From a virus, in IMG/VR virus record IMGVR_UViG_3300000216_000003, positions 1-64,000 of that record: a stretch of 64,000 nt of DNA; one strand, 5' to 3'. Below the pieces are notes generated by a model. The model ran no database searches. It was not told where the DNA came from and saw only the letters and a list, made by a program, of their open reading frames with translations. This document shows, piece by piece, positions 14,667 through 61,881 of this stretch (position 1 is the stretch's first letter; each line of letters starts with the position of its first letter). The position numbers and the translations under genes are program-made.

Positions 14667-14904
14667 CTTCTTCACCGTCTGTAAAAATCTCTTTAATCTC
14701 TTTTCTTGATATTGGAAATTTTCCTTGAACTTGTCCACAGTCTAAGCAAATATCAATATTAATATAGTCACCTCCATTATCAAATATCATAGCATACCCT
14801 TGATAATCAACATTATCACTTTCAATATTCACCCATGCCATATCGCTACATTTACCACCAACAATTGCGATACGGGGACTATTACATTTAGTACACTCAG
14901 ACAT
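14659..14904 (-). CDS. zinc-ribbon small protein
   Basis: 81 residues from ATG 14904. CTKC at residue 4 and CLDC about 55 residues later form a likely zinc ribbon; acidic C-terminus (FTDGEEDE). The longer upstream frame overlaps the preceding gene and is less likely. Function unknown. Confidence 0.68.
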   Translation of the reverse strand: MSECTKCNSPRIAIVGGKCSDMAWVNIESDNVDYQGYAMIFDNGGDYINIDICLDCGQVQGKFPISRKEIKEIFTDGEEDE

Positions 14905-15082
14905 TTTTAATCTCCAATACTTTAATTTCGGGAATATCAAATTCTAATTCTTCAAAAATTTTATCATGTAGCTCTTCTGATCTGGTTTCAGCTATTTTCC
15001 GAGCTTCTTCATAAGAATCTGCTTTAACTTCTCCAAGATGATTAGTGATATAATATTCTGCAACTAGTTCATATGTAGGCAT
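14897..15082 (-). CDS. small DpnD/PcfM-like protein
   Basis: 61 residues: MPTYELVAEYYITNHLGEVKADSYEEARKIAE, a beta hairpin plus helix typical of PcfM/DpnD-like proteins. Similar to the 14460 product (YEV...V.A.S.EEA). Lies directly after the broken repeat gene. Confidence 0.68.
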   Translation of the reverse strand: MPTYELVAEYYITNHLGEVKADSYEEARKIAETRSEELHDKIFEELEFDIPEIKVLEIKNV

Positions 15083-44042: not shown

Positions 44043-44073
44043 TTATTATATCTATATATTAATAAATAAAAAC
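44043..44073 (-). promoter_or_regulatory. phage promoter for the deaminase-clamp operon
   Basis: Minus-strand GTTTTTATTTATTAATA then TATAGATATAATAAAT. Placed right after the terminator of the candidate small RNA at 44085-44181. Confidence 0.8.
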
Positions 44074-51304: not shown

Positions 51305-52789
51305 CTAATAAGTTTGAAATGTTGAAATCCATTTATCATTAAATGGTGAGATTTGATTATCTTCTTGACTATAACTATCTTTAGCCATTGTCATATTTAC
51401 AGCATCAATATACATACTAAAACAACCTTCTTTTGTCTCAAATAATTTTTCATCAATTCCAATATGCAATAATTCTTTTTCATATTTACGGGCAAGACCA
51501 GTATCGATACCAATCTCAATATCTTTAATTTTATCACCGGCTAATTTAAGAGTTAAACCAATTAGCCAATTATTATAATAATTAGGATCAAAAGATTCTC
51601 CTCTACCAACAGGTTTAAAGTCGAGTAAAGTAATTCTTGCATTTGATAATCCTTGCATATGTGTAATTATATCATAAAAATCATGAATAGAGCTACTTCC
51701 CATTACATATTGAAAATTAAATTTATAATATTGCGGAGCATCTTTAGTAGTGTTTAATATATCTTCAGAATTAGAGATACTAACTGCATAATTAGCTCCT
51801 AATTCATCTAATTGTTTTGAATTCTTACGAACATATTCAATATTACGAGTAGTGAAATTAGGAATAATGTCTTGTTTCCGAAACTGTTCAAGAATCTGTA
51901 TAAAGTCTGGATGTGTTGTTGGTTCACCTCCTCCAATAGCTACTTCAAAAATATTGGCATCTCCAAGTGTTTTAATAATATGAGACATATTATCCAAAGT
52001 AGCATGTTTTCCTTTAGTAGAACTACCTTGATAACAAAAACTACAACCAGTTTCACAATAGTCTGTAATCTTTACATCTACTAGTTCAGGAGTTGTCGAT
52101 TTGATATAATCAGGGTGTGAACCATTTAATGTAAACCGTATCTTAGTTCCATTACTTTGATTAAATACAGCCCAATATCCTTTATCTTTTCTTGCTATTA
52201 CTTTTAATTTAGCAGCCCCATATGGAACATATTGTTGAATAGCATCTAAAGCATTAGGAGTTTTATACTCATCAGTAACATATTCTTCTTTATCTTCATC
52301 ATAGTATTCAGAATATGTGTCTGCGCTTAAATAATGACCATCCCCATTATCATTTCCACCAAGAATAACAATTTGATCATTATTCCCAATATATGCAATA
52401 ACATCATCTAAAAAATTAGAGTTTGGTTTATTATCCCTATGTGAATATGGAAATGTAAAACTAGACTGATGATCAACATAAGAGGGCTTAAAACCTTCTA
52501 CTTCACCTTCATCACCTTCAATATACTGTTTAGCACATTCTTTACCAACACGACGAAAAGTATCTTTTAATGCTCGTCGTTCAAGAGAGTTCTCTTCTGT
52601 TTGTCCTATAATTAAAGATAACATATAATGTTGTTTTGCTATTGGTGAAACTAATGTAAAATCATTCCAACCATATTGACCAACATCACTATCTCCAATA
52701 TCATCAGAGAAAGTATCTTTCTTAAAAACAATTGAGTGACTACTGCTACTATTTGTAGCAAATCCATATCGAATACTAGAAACTTTCAT
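51305..52789 (-). CDS. radical SAM enzyme of unknown function
   Basis: 494 residues. The first 230 form an extra domain beginning MKVSSIRYGFATNSSSSHS; the core starts at about 235 with CETGCSFCYQGS (C245, C249, C252) and GGGEP (286-290), followed by a TIM-barrel-like pattern (FKPVGRGES). A single Cys (EGCFSMY, near 460) could bind a second cofactor, but a full SPASM set is not visible. Substrate unknown: a peptide, nucleic acid or small molecule. Adjacent 53185 and 52776 are tightly linked. Confidence 0.85.
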   Translation of the reverse strand: MKVSSIRYGFATNSSSSHSIVFKKDTFSDDIGDSDVGQYGWNDFTLVSPIAKQHYMLSLIIGQTEENSLERRALKDTFRRVGKECAKQYIEGDEGEVEGFKPSYVDHQSSFTFPYSHRDNKPNSNFLDDVIAYIGNNDQIVILGGNDNGDGHYLSADTYSEYYDEDKEEYVTDEYKTPNALDAIQQYVPYGAAKLKVIARKDKGYWAVFNQSNGTKIRFTLNGSHPDYIKSTTPELVDVKITDYCETGCSFCYQGSSTKGKHATLDNMSHIIKTLGDANIFEVAIGGGEPTTHPDFIQILEQFRKQDIIPNFTTRNIEYVRKNSKQLDELGANYAVSISNSEDILNTTKDAPQYYKFNFQYVMGSSSIHDFYDIITHMQGLSNARITLLDFKPVGRGESFDPNYYNNWLIGLTLKLAGDKIKDIEIGIDTGLARKYEKELLHIGIDEKLFETKEGCFSMYIDAVNMTMAKDSYSQEDNQISPFNDKWISTFQTY

Positions 52790-53537: not shown

Positions 53538-53888
53538 ATGTCTGAAGAAAATACACCTACCCACGAAGCACAGTCTGATACTCAAACAGAGCCCACAGAA
53601 GAACAAAAACAATTATTTATGCAGAAGATGCAAATGAAAGCTCAACAAGAAGCTTTACTAAAACATCAAATTGTTCAGTCTGCGTCTACAATTTTAGCTG
53701 GCATTTTTTCAAATACAACATCAAGTGTCGGTGGAATTAATAGTGATCCAACTAAGAATCTAGCTATTCGCAATAAGAGACTAGAAAAAGTCGGAGTTGC
53801 CGTAGATACTGCTATTACACTTATTTCTTATGTTAATGGTCTTGATCTTGATAAAGATGTCAAGAAGATGGGCCAAGAAAAGAAATAA
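53538..53888 (+). CDS. hypothetical protein, monocistronic
   Basis: 116 residues. Acidic, Thr/Glu/Gln-rich start (EENTPTHEAQSDTQTEPTEEQKQ), helical middle (MQKMQMKAQQEALLKHQIVQSASTILAGIF) and a basic C-terminus. AAGGAG lies before the ATG. Strong terminator follows, as expected for an abundant single-gene unit. Possibly virion or early protein; not recognised. Confidence 0.77.
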   Translation: MSEENTPTHEAQSDTQTEPTEEQKQLFMQKMQMKAQQEALLKHQIVQSASTILAGIFSNTTSSVGGINSDPTKNLAIRNKRLEKVGVAVDTAITLISYVNGLDLDKDVKKMGQEKK

Positions 53889-53906: not shown

Positions 53907-53953
53907 AAGTAATAACTCAGGTTACTATCTCGAGTAAACCTGAGTTATTACTT
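53907..53953. terminator. 17-bp palindromic terminator
   Basis: AAGTAATAACTCAGGTT/AACCTGAGTTATTACTT, with AT-rich tracts on both sides (TTTTATTTT toward the gene). Shared by the plus gene 53538 and the minus-strand candidate RNA. Confidence 0.85.
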
Positions 53954-54125
53954 CATTTCATGGACAACTCTACCCCCATGAAATACTACCATAATTTTAA
54001 GCATTATCTTTATAATAGAGACAATGCTGCCGTAAGTTAACATGGGTAAAGTTAAAACTCACACCAGTATAATACTTAAACTATAGCGGGCCACCGACTT
54101 ATAGAGTATAGTGGCGGTAGCTTGA
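53907..54125 (-). ncRNA. candidate structured RNA of about 215 bases
   Basis: No ORF of note. The minus strand after the promoter at 54131-54160 has ACTATA...TATAGT (54080-54112), GCCAC...GTGGC (54090-54115), AGCATT...AATGCT (54000-54028), TTTCATGG...CCATGAAA (53956-53983) and ends in the 17-bp terminator. Some stems can compete, so the fold could switch. Function unknown. Confidence 0.6.
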
Positions 54126-54130
54126 TATTA

Positions 54131-54160
54131 TATTATATCTATATCAAATCCTTTAAAAAA
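54131..54160 (-). promoter_or_regulatory. phage promoter for the candidate RNA
   Basis: Minus-strand TTTTTTAAAGGATTTGA then TATAGATATAATATAAT. Directly after the weak terminator of the 54174 gene. No coding gene follows it. Confidence 0.75.
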
Positions 54161-54182
54161 TAAAGGACGTTTTTTACGCCCA
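54155..54182 (-). terminator. terminator at the end of the YWS array
   Basis: GGGCGT/ACGTCC stem (one wobble pair) overlapping the stop codon of the 54174 gene, then TTTATTTTTT on the minus strand. The T-tract is also the promoter box of the next unit. Confidence 0.65.
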
Positions 54183-54383
54183 GTACAGTTTATTATATCT
54201 AATTACATTTTCTGTTGGATCTCCAATCATTTCTATAGCATAAGGAGAACGTCTGCAAATAGCATATGCATTCTCTTCGATTGGGGTATCTCTAAATTTT
54301 ATTAATATATTTACCCAAATATTATCCCAATATCTCCAAGACTTATTATCTAATAATAATGTATATGCATAGGATAATCTCAT
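54174..54383 (-). CDS. YWS-tail family protein, operon-terminal
   Basis: 69 residues from ATG 54383, matching its neighbours in length. DTPIEENAYAICRRSPYAIEMIGDPTENVIRYNKLYWA: the family core is P.EENAY.ICR...., ..I.DPT..V..YNKLYWS. In this last copy the final Ser is Ala, and TTGGAG is lost. Function unknown. Confidence 0.75.
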   Translation of the reverse strand: MRLSYAYTLLLDNKSWRYWDNIWVNILIKFRDTPIEENAYAICRRSPYAIEMIGDPTENVIRYNKLYWA

Positions 54384-54385
54384 TT

Positions 54386-54595
54386 TTAACTCCAATATAA
54401 TTTATTATAGTTTTCGACTGCTGTTGTTGGATTCTTAATTACTTCTATAGTATGGTCTGCTACTCTACATATTTTATATGCATTCTCTTCAGTTGGTGTT
54501 TTCTCAAATTCTAATAGTAATAATTTCCATTTAATATCCCAAGAAGTATGTGGTGGTTCTTTTAACATTTGAACAAATTTATCAGATAATTCCAC
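54386..54595 (-). CDS. YWS-tail family protein
   Basis: 69 residues from GTG 54595. KTPTEENAYKICRVADHTIEVIKNPTTAVENYNKLYWS. The last codons TATTGGAGT supply TTGGAG before the next ATG. Close duplicate of both neighbours. Confidence 0.76.
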   Translation of the reverse strand: MELSDKFVQMLKEPPHTSWDIKWKLLLLEFEKTPTEENAYKICRVADHTIEVIKNPTTAVENYNKLYWS

Positions 54596-54597
54596 TA

Positions 54598-54810
54598 TTA
54601 ACTCCAATATAATTTATTATAAGTTTCGACTGCTGGTGTTGGATCTTTAATATTATTAATAGATTTAGGAAAAAATTTACAAACAATACATGCATTCTCT
54701 TCACTTGGTTTTCTGTGAAAATTCAATAAAGCTTGTTTATACCCCCTATTATTTCTTTTCTTCCTCCATTTTTTATTTATAATCTTAATAGATTCTTCGG
54801 ATAATTTCAT
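54598..54810 (-). CDS. YWS-tail family protein
   Basis: 70 residues from ATG 54810 (TAATG overlap). KWRKKRNNRGYKQALLNFHRKPSEENACIVCKFFPKSINNIKDPTPAVETYNKLYWS; basic N-terminal half. Unknown function. Confidence 0.76.
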   Translation of the reverse strand: MKLSEESIKIINKKWRKKRNNRGYKQALLNFHRKPSEENACIVCKFFPKSINNIKDPTPAVETYNKLYWS

Positions 54811-55079
54811 TAAGACCACCACATCTTATGATATGTTATGACTGTTTCTGGGACATCTTTACAATACTTCAATATATCTGGATATACTTGTATTAATTTA
54901 TTTATATCAGAAATTGATATATCTTCATACTTATATGATTCTTTATTCTTAAACCATTCATAATAACCATGTGAATTTAACATAATATGTAGAGATGCTG
55001 TTAGTCTATTTTGACTATCGGGGATATAATCAACAGGACATTCAATAGTCGCTTTTTTTACCGTTGTATTTATTTGCAT
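54810..55079 (-). CDS. YWS-tail family protein, diverged
   Basis: 89 residues from ATG 55079. The N-terminal part differs (INTTVKKATIECPVDYIPDSQNRL, HIMLNSHGYYEWFKNKESY) but the end SVPETVITYHKMWWS-type is the same module. TAATG overlap both sides. Unknown function. Confidence 0.72.
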   Translation of the reverse strand: MQINTTVKKATIECPVDYIPDSQNRLTASLHIMLNSHGYYEWFKNKESYKYEDISISDINKLIQVYPDILKYCKDVPETVITYHKMWWS

Positions 55080-55318
55080 TATACCTCCTGTAGTTTTATA
55101 TATGTCTTTAGTTCTTGAGTAGGGTTTATAACCCAAGCATAGAATGTGTTGCTCCATGTTTGTTGTTCTGAATGTCTTTGTCTAAACATATGATATATAT
55201 TTATAGCGTTTTCGAACGTTGGATCGGCTGCCATCTTAAAGAATCCGTCTCGCCATTCAATTTCATCTGGAGTGGTAGAGTGCCAGGATTGAGTAATTAT
55301 GTCTTCTCGTAAGTGCAT
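55079..55318 (-). CDS. small paralog, tail YIKLQEV
   Basis: 79 residues. WRDGFFKMAADPTFENAINIYHMFRQRHSEQQTWSNTFYAWVINPTQELKTYIKLQEV. DPTFENAINIYH is shared with 55318 and 55563, and the NPTQELKTYIKL ending parallels the YWS array. AGGAGGTATAATG gives a strong site for the next gene. Confidence 0.76.
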   Translation of the reverse strand: MHLREDIITQSWHSTTPDEIEWRDGFFKMAADPTFENAINIYHMFRQRHSEQQTWSNTFYAWVINPTQELKTYIKLQEV

Positions 55319-55563
55319 TAAGACTCCATTAGTTTTACGTAGTTGATTAGTTCTTGAGATGGGTCTTCGAACCAGGTGAAGAAAGAACCCTTATCCCATA
55401 TATCATTATCGAAATTATTAATTTTATATTGGTATATATTTATGGCATTTTCGAATGTTGGATTATTGTGGAATATTAAAAACACTTCTTTCCAATCATC
55501 ATGTTTCCATACATCTTCATCAACATCTATTAAATCGCAAAGTACTTCTTTTGATAATTGCAT
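55318..55563 (-). CDS. small paralog, tail YVKLMES
   Basis: 81 residues from ATG 55563. NNPTFENAINIYQYKINNFDNDIWDKGSFFTWFEDPSQELINYVKLMES, near-identical in layout to 55563. The longer open frame upstream lies in the neighbour. Unknown function. Confidence 0.76.
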   Translation of the reverse strand: MQLSKEVLCDLIDVDEDVWKHDDWKEVFLIFHNNPTFENAINIYQYKINNFDNDIWDKGSFFTWFEDPSQELINYVKLMES

Positions 55564-55802
55564 TAGGAATCCATTAGTTTTACGTAGTTGATTAGTTCTT
55601 GAGATGGGTCTTCGAACCAAGAGAGGAAGCCGATTGAAGTCCATGCGTTATTCTCAAAATGTTTCGATTTTAAATGATATATATTTATAGCATTTTCAAG
55701 TGTAGGCTCTTTCATAAATAATATAAAACTATTTTTCCATTCTGGATCAGTTTTCCAATAGCTATGCATTACTGTATTTTCTGTATCATGAGTTAGTTTC
55801 AT
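55563..55802 (-). CDS. small paralog, tail YVKLMDS, first gene of the array
   Basis: 79 residues. EPTLENAINIYHLKSKHFENNAWTSIGFLSWFEDPSQELINYVKLMDS. The 3' 60 bases are almost identical in DNA to those of 55318, a sign of recent duplication. AAGGAAAAATATA precedes the ATG. Function unknown. Confidence 0.77.
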   Translation of the reverse strand: MKLTHDTENTVMHSYWKTDPEWKNSFILFMKEPTLENAINIYHLKSKHFENNAWTSIGFLSWFEDPSQELINYVKLMDS

Positions 55803-61018: not shown

Positions 61019-61047
61019 GTTTTCATCAATCTTATATAGATATAATC
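61019..61047 (+). promoter_or_regulatory. phage promoter for the 61097 unit
   Basis: Plus-strand GTTTTCATCAATCTTA then TATAGATATAATCAAT, exact register. Confidence 0.8.
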
Positions 61048-61096
61048 AATTGTAGTAATAAGAATCCTTATTAAAAATAAATTAAGGACTAAATAA

Positions 61097-61147
61097 TTGA
61101 TTCAAGCATCAACTGAAGGATCAGGCGGCTGGGTTGGGGCTGACTGA
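61097..61147 (+). CDS. possible 16-residue leader peptide (TTG start)
   Basis: TTG start 11 bases after AAGGA, product (M)IQASTEGSGGWVGAD. It is the only frame of note in a unit of about 150 bases with its own promoter and terminator. The GSGGW end resembles nothing specific. The transcript could equally be a small RNA. Confidence 0.4.
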   Translation: MIQASTEGSGGWVGAD

Positions 61148-61157
61148 TATATTAAAG

Positions 61158-61197
61158 ATTGGACGATATTCGAAAGAGTGTCGTCCAATTTATTATA
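61158..61197 (+). terminator. terminator of the 61.05 kb short unit
   Basis: ATTGGACGA/TCGTCCAAT stem, 14-base loop, then TTATTATATTTG. Confidence 0.78.
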
Positions 61198-61225
61198 TTT
61201 GTTCATAGAAAAAGTCCACAACTAC

Positions 61226-61695: not shown

Positions 61696-61881
61696 ATGAA
61701 ACTGAACGTAACAAAAAAAGAATTAAAATTTTTAGATGTTACAGATACTATTATTATAGAAACTAGAGATAAAAAATTATTGAAAATAAAGCCTATTGGA
61801 AAAGGGTTTAATATTAGTATCGATGATATTATATACGATGTGAGTGATGGAACCATTAAAAAAATAGGGACTAATGATTAA
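61696..61881 (+). CDS. small hypothetical protein
   Basis: 61 residues, basic, beta-rich (LLKIKPIGKGFNISIDDIIYDVSDGTIKKIG). Overlaps the beta-prime ATG by eight bases, so coupled. Could be a small polymerase-associated factor by location only. Confidence 0.7.
   Translation: MKLNVTKKELKFLDVTDTIIIETRDKKLLKIKPIGKGFNISIDDIIYDVSDGTIKKIGTND

Follow-up and report, generated by a model that had tools for sequence, protein, structure and literature searches.

The minus strand between positions 54126 and 53907 of the window analysed here probably carries a stand-alone phage gene for a structured RNA, which would act in trans and belong to this lineage specifically; we put the probability of this reading at about two in three. 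The window spans positions 1 to 64,000 of G000, a 106,480-base viral contig from IMG/VR with a G+C content of about 30%. The promoter, the terminators, the non-coding status and a folding beyond chance are supported by sequence statistics. Transcription of the gene is suggested by the promoter family to which it belongs, and trans action is the way in which the RNA would most plausibly work.

G000 encodes the beta' protein of a multisubunit-type RNA polymerase (from window position 61874 onward) and, judging the translations by eye, presumably also a type II topoisomerase, ThyX, queuosine-type genes and many small paralogous proteins. The closest beta' relatives in phage records are only 24% identical, and a search of IMG/VR with a beta' fragment returned 226 relatives, the best of which reached 47-48% identity over 64 amino acids. 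Because even the nearest beta' relatives are so distant, the phage represents an isolated lineage in the available collections.

Promoter family and predicted boundaries of the RNA unit

The motif TATAGATATWAT is found 28 times in the 106-kb contig, compared to 0.75 copies expected and a maximum of 4 in 100 random second-order Markov sequences with the trinucleotide make-up of the contig. With few exceptions, the copies lie between genes and face the next gene or open reading frame (ORF), the start of which is mostly 30-130 bases away. Alignment of the copies revealed a further box, K-TTTT, located 12-16 bases upstream, which is exact in about half of the 28 copies, including the promoter of the RNA gene. 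The two-box promoter of G000 can thus be written as KTTTT-N11-TATAGATATWAT and is lineage-specific: its enrichment is absent in every other contig examined, and a scan for kin with the promoter pattern yielded 10 contigs, none of which has more than two copies. The promoter of the RNA gene, whose upstream box differs from TTGACA, did not appear among the hits of a generic sigma-70 scan. One copy of the family, at contig position 73103, directly precedes a tRNA-Met gene (anticodon CAT; contig 73122-73199, L088:10122-10199); therefore, this promoter class also serves RNA genes. The minus-strand promoter proposed in an earlier note on this DNA, which had been made from the letters alone, is one of the 28 family copies and combines the core TATAGATATAAT with a box of five T residues (Table 1).

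Table 1. Features of the predicted RNA gene and its flanks, in window coordinates
Feature	Position	Strand	Remark
Terminator of the upstream minus-strand gene array, GGGCGT AAAAA ACGTCC then TTTATTTTTT	54155..54181	minus	
Upstream promoter box TTTTT of the RNA gene	54155..54159	minus	-16 to -12 before TATAGATATAAT; strongest upstream signal of the family
Core promoter TATAGATATAAT of the RNA gene	54132..54143	minus	motif family of the contig
Predicted non-coding RNA, about 220 nt	53907..54126	minus	start and end as predicted
P1 5' strand GCUACC	54116..54121	minus	fold A partner 53990-53985; fold B partner GGUGGC 54095-54090
P2 hairpin GCCACU/GGUGGC	54090..54115	minus	predicted fold
P2b hairpin CCG.UAUAGU/AUUAUA.UGG	54064..54089	minus	fold A only
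P3 hairpin UGUGAGU/ACUUACG, loop UUUACCCAU	54031..54063	minus	outer pairs with predicted probability 0.99
P4 hairpin AGCAUUGUCU/AGAUAAUGCU	54000..54028	minus	predicted fold
P1 3' strand GGUAGU	53985..53990	minus	predicted fold
P5 hairpin AUUUCAUGG/CCAUGAAAU, loop GGGUAGAGUUGU	53955..53984	minus	predicted probability about 1.0; loop complementary to P3 loop
17-bp bidirectional terminator hairpin	53907..53953	both	common to convergent gene 53538-53888(+)

Terminators are present on both sides of the RNA unit. The hairpin of the upstream terminator (54181-54165) extends over the stop codon of ORF 54174-54395, the last gene of the array, and its T tract doubles as the upstream box of the promoter of the RNA gene. 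This array consists of seven short minus-strand genes in tandem (window 54174-55802), which appear paralogous by eye and have similar C-termini of the form ..PTxxxxxYxKLxxS; a Pfam scan of two members gave no match. Judged by the usual spacing, the RNA would start at A54126 or A54123, about six bases past TATAGATATAAT. Base pairing in the predicted structure begins at G54121, no more than about 5 nt from this predicted start. The 3' end would be formed by the 17-bp terminator hairpin, the stem of which lies directly 3' of the plus-strand gene 53538-53888.

The promoter aims at the 3' end of this convergent gene, the 3' UTR hairpin of the gene has its full complement in the RNA, and the terminator hairpin is flanked on both sides by a poor T tract. 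It is conceivable that an orphan minus-strand promoter generates transcripts that read through the terminator and lower the expression of 53538-53888 as antisense RNA, with the folded sequence being a functionless spacer. We regard this as unlikely, since a 17-bp terminator stands between promoter and gene, shared terminators are ordinary among convergent genes, and such a mechanism would not require the sequence upstream of the terminator to fold better than chance.

The longest minus-strand ORF of the unit encodes 31 amino acids (ATG at 54043, MLTYGSIVSIIKIMLKIMVVFHGGRVVHEMK); the others are shorter. Neither this ORF nor any other minus-strand ORF of the unit possesses a Shine-Dalgarno sequence, and a match of at least three bases, which is a lax criterion, precedes 67 of the 86 long ORFs of the phage. 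The 31-codon frame is open and the first half of its product is hydrophobic, as would be expected if the unit were a gene for a small protein and its structure the leader of an mRNA. However, in addition to lacking a Shine-Dalgarno sequence, the ORF has its start codon within hairpin P3 and a length that is ordinary for chance, which leaves this explanation with very little credence. Two further observations of the earlier note hold for the unit: there is no plausible ORF, and the 17-bp terminator shared with the convergent gene, usable in both directions, is in place.

Predicted fold of the RNA

The whole RNA has a predicted folding energy of -77.2 kcal/mol (z -7.8), which was not reached by any of 200 shuffled sequences. 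When the terminator hairpin is removed, the z-score is -3.8, and one of 300 shuffles folds as low. Among 758 tiled windows of 168 nt, covering both strands of the window, the terminator-free part ranks ninth; the windows ranked above it include terminators and a second RNA unit described below. The folding of the plus strand of the stretch is almost as strong (z -3.4 when the terminator is left out), which would be in line with a plus-strand element, that is, with a structure forming part of the 3' UTR of gene 53538-53888. Yet the interval contains no promoter of the phage family on the plus strand and lies beyond the terminator of this gene; this possibility is therefore considered very improbable.

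In the predicted ensemble, P3, P5 and the terminator hairpin are near-certain and P4 is likely, and all four are common to both global folds. In fold A, the helix P1 (GCUACC/GGUAGU) closes a junction with a probability of 0.54, whereas in fold B a local hairpin GCUACC/GGUGGC is formed and GCUAUAGUUU pairs downstream, with a probability of 0.43. The fold of the 5' half of the RNA is uncertain because these two folds are nearly equal. Their close probabilities and the small energy gap of 1.7 kcal/mol might indicate an RNA switch, in which folds A and B are states set by a ligand, a protein or the kinetics of transcription. However, comparable ambiguity is common in single-sequence predictions, the RNA is not followed by a downstream gene to control, and there are no homologues with which a switch could be tested. 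The pair named in the earlier note, ACTATA/TATAGT, has a pairing probability of about 0. Overall, a switch appears improbable.

At least four inverted repeats had been described for the interval, which agrees with the five internal hairpins or helices predicted here in addition to the terminator. The repeats ACTATA/TATAGT and GCCAC/GTGGC do exist and do overlap, but a switch between them is energetically unsupported, the best fold with the ACTATA/TATAGT conformer being 7.5 kcal/mol worse. Of the proposal of a structured RNA of about 215 bases, a discrete structured minus-strand RNA of about 215-220 nt running from promoter to terminator has good support in the sequence.

The P3 loop UUUACCC is complementary to the P5 loop GGGUAGA, and this complementarity can be extended to 10 bp with one G-U pair. 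Its energy of -9.9 kcal/mol was reached by none of 2000 shuffles of the loop letters; with a stricter definition of the loops and a simple score, 367 of 5000 such shuffles (7%) do as well as the RNA. These numbers are suggestive of a kissing contact of 7-10 bp between P3 and P5. The two loops may pair within one molecule or between molecules. It is tempting to speculate that the loops assemble copies of the RNA into a defined multimer, or lock a single compact copy that captures a host factor in the course of infection, and that the RNA represents a new class of small phage RNAs that self-assemble or bind proteins; we consider this a long shot.

Relatives and possible mode of action

No Rfam family, including tRNA, tmRNA, 6S, RNase P, GOLLD and ROOL, was matched by the RNA at gathering cut-offs in a search of the whole window, and relaxed thresholds produced only implausible sub-threshold matches, for instance to microRNAs. 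The search works on this genome, since the tRNA and the tmRNA of the contig were found by it. BLASTN of the RNA stretch against 50,697 phage and 72,556 plasmid records returned only pieces of chance length, and no relatives were obtained via the protein of the convergent gene, the beta' protein or the topoisomerase. No match to the RNA was obtained in 41 beta'-bearing contigs searched by BLAST or in 18 searched with a one-sequence covariance model; a model built from one sequence is insensitive, and absence therefore does not mean that relatives lack the RNA. A radical SAM protein is encoded close by on the minus strand (window 51305-52789, N-terminus MKVSSIRYGFATNSSSSHS) and has full-length relatives, about 25-35% identical, in dozens of large phage contigs of up to 607 kb. 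A search with the N-terminus identified 49 loci where a related radical SAM gene is the neighbour, and the RNA was found at none of them. Pieces of the RNA were also sought in two pattern scans, which gave chance-like matches only, and nhmmer detected nothing in the loci on which it was run. As none of the searches revealed homologues, neither covariation nor selection on the structure is evident.

Pairing with phage messages was assessed as well. The longest perfect complement of the RNA to a phage mRNA is 13 nt, which equals the median of shuffled sequences, and the whole RNA and three of the four loops pair with phage translation starts no better than shuffles. For the loop of the 5' hairpin and the start of ORF 14897-15082, none of 40 shuffles was as good, a value that is uncorrected for five tests; this match is worth a look.

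A trans-acting structured RNA is the easiest reading because the unit is insulated by terminators, starts at its first helix, is non-coding and has no clear target among the phage mRNAs. RNA polymerase would start at the phage-type promoter at 54143-54132, while the upstream terminator, whose T tract overlaps the promoter box, would insulate the gene from the upstream array. An RNA of about 220 nt would be made until transcription halts at the bidirectional hairpin. The RNA could then adopt a junction that is closed by the long-range helix and encloses P3 and P4; P5 and the terminator come next, and the loops of P3 and P5 may kiss. Most likely, the stable folded RNA would work in trans through a protein or host RNA that it binds, and not through antisense pairing with phage messages.

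Known phage RNAs and further RNA genes

The predicted RNA would be an orphan instance of an already known kind, the phage-encoded non-coding RNAs, and has no homologue among the named systems. The packaging RNA of phage phi29, a phage RNA of about 170-220 nt with a junction and complementary hairpin loops, resembles it in size and in the junction and complementary loops predicted here; however, there is no sequence or Rfam match and no packaging context is apparent. GOLLD and ROOL are phage-encoded structured RNAs with kissing loops (PMC12286853). They share phage origin, structure and kissing loops with the RNA described here, for which the latter are predictions, but they are several times longer, are often located near tRNA genes and have covariation support and Rfam models, none of which matched here (PMC12286853). 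RNA-seq of Staphylococcus phage K revealed intergenic small non-coding RNAs such as snc007 (127601-127826, about 226 nt; PMC9241854). Like the RNA of G000, snc007 is intergenic, of similar size and derived from a large lytic phage, and targets are unproven in both cases, whereas the RNA presented here is known from its sequence alone and has no sequence match to those of phage K (PMC9241854). Phage ICP1 produces a non-coding transcript of about 800 nt, reported to be its most abundant transcript (PMC7567579). This transcript also originates from ORF-less space and has no assigned function, but it is abundant and far longer than the RNA of about 220 nt predicted here (PMC7567579).

Among large lytic phages, expression of abundant RNAs without assigned function is frequent, and most of these RNAs have been found only via RNA-seq. 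In G000, RNA genes are marked in the genome itself by a lineage-specific promoter whose copies can be counted. As this promoter also points to a tRNA and to a second RNA unit, it offers a way to list the RNA genes of uncultured phages.

The second candidate unit, of about 115-125 nt, is located on the minus strand at window 44187-44060, with the promoter TATAGATATTAT at 44198-44187. It contains a hairpin AGAAUUAGGAC/GUCCUAGUUCU, another hairpin capped by UUCG and a terminator hairpin with T tracts behind it, and folds with a z-score of -5.4 as a whole and of -2.7 without the terminator; a separate promoter at 44056 belongs to the downstream gene. The contig also harbours a complete one-piece tmRNA gene (contig 104354-104711, L090:2354-2711) with the tag ANDEFYAPVALAA. 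On the plus strand, window 61035-61200 contains TATAGATATAAT, followed by a Shine-Dalgarno sequence, a 16-codon ORF starting with TTG (LIQASTEGSGGWVGAD) and a terminator, and is possibly a gene for a tiny peptide.
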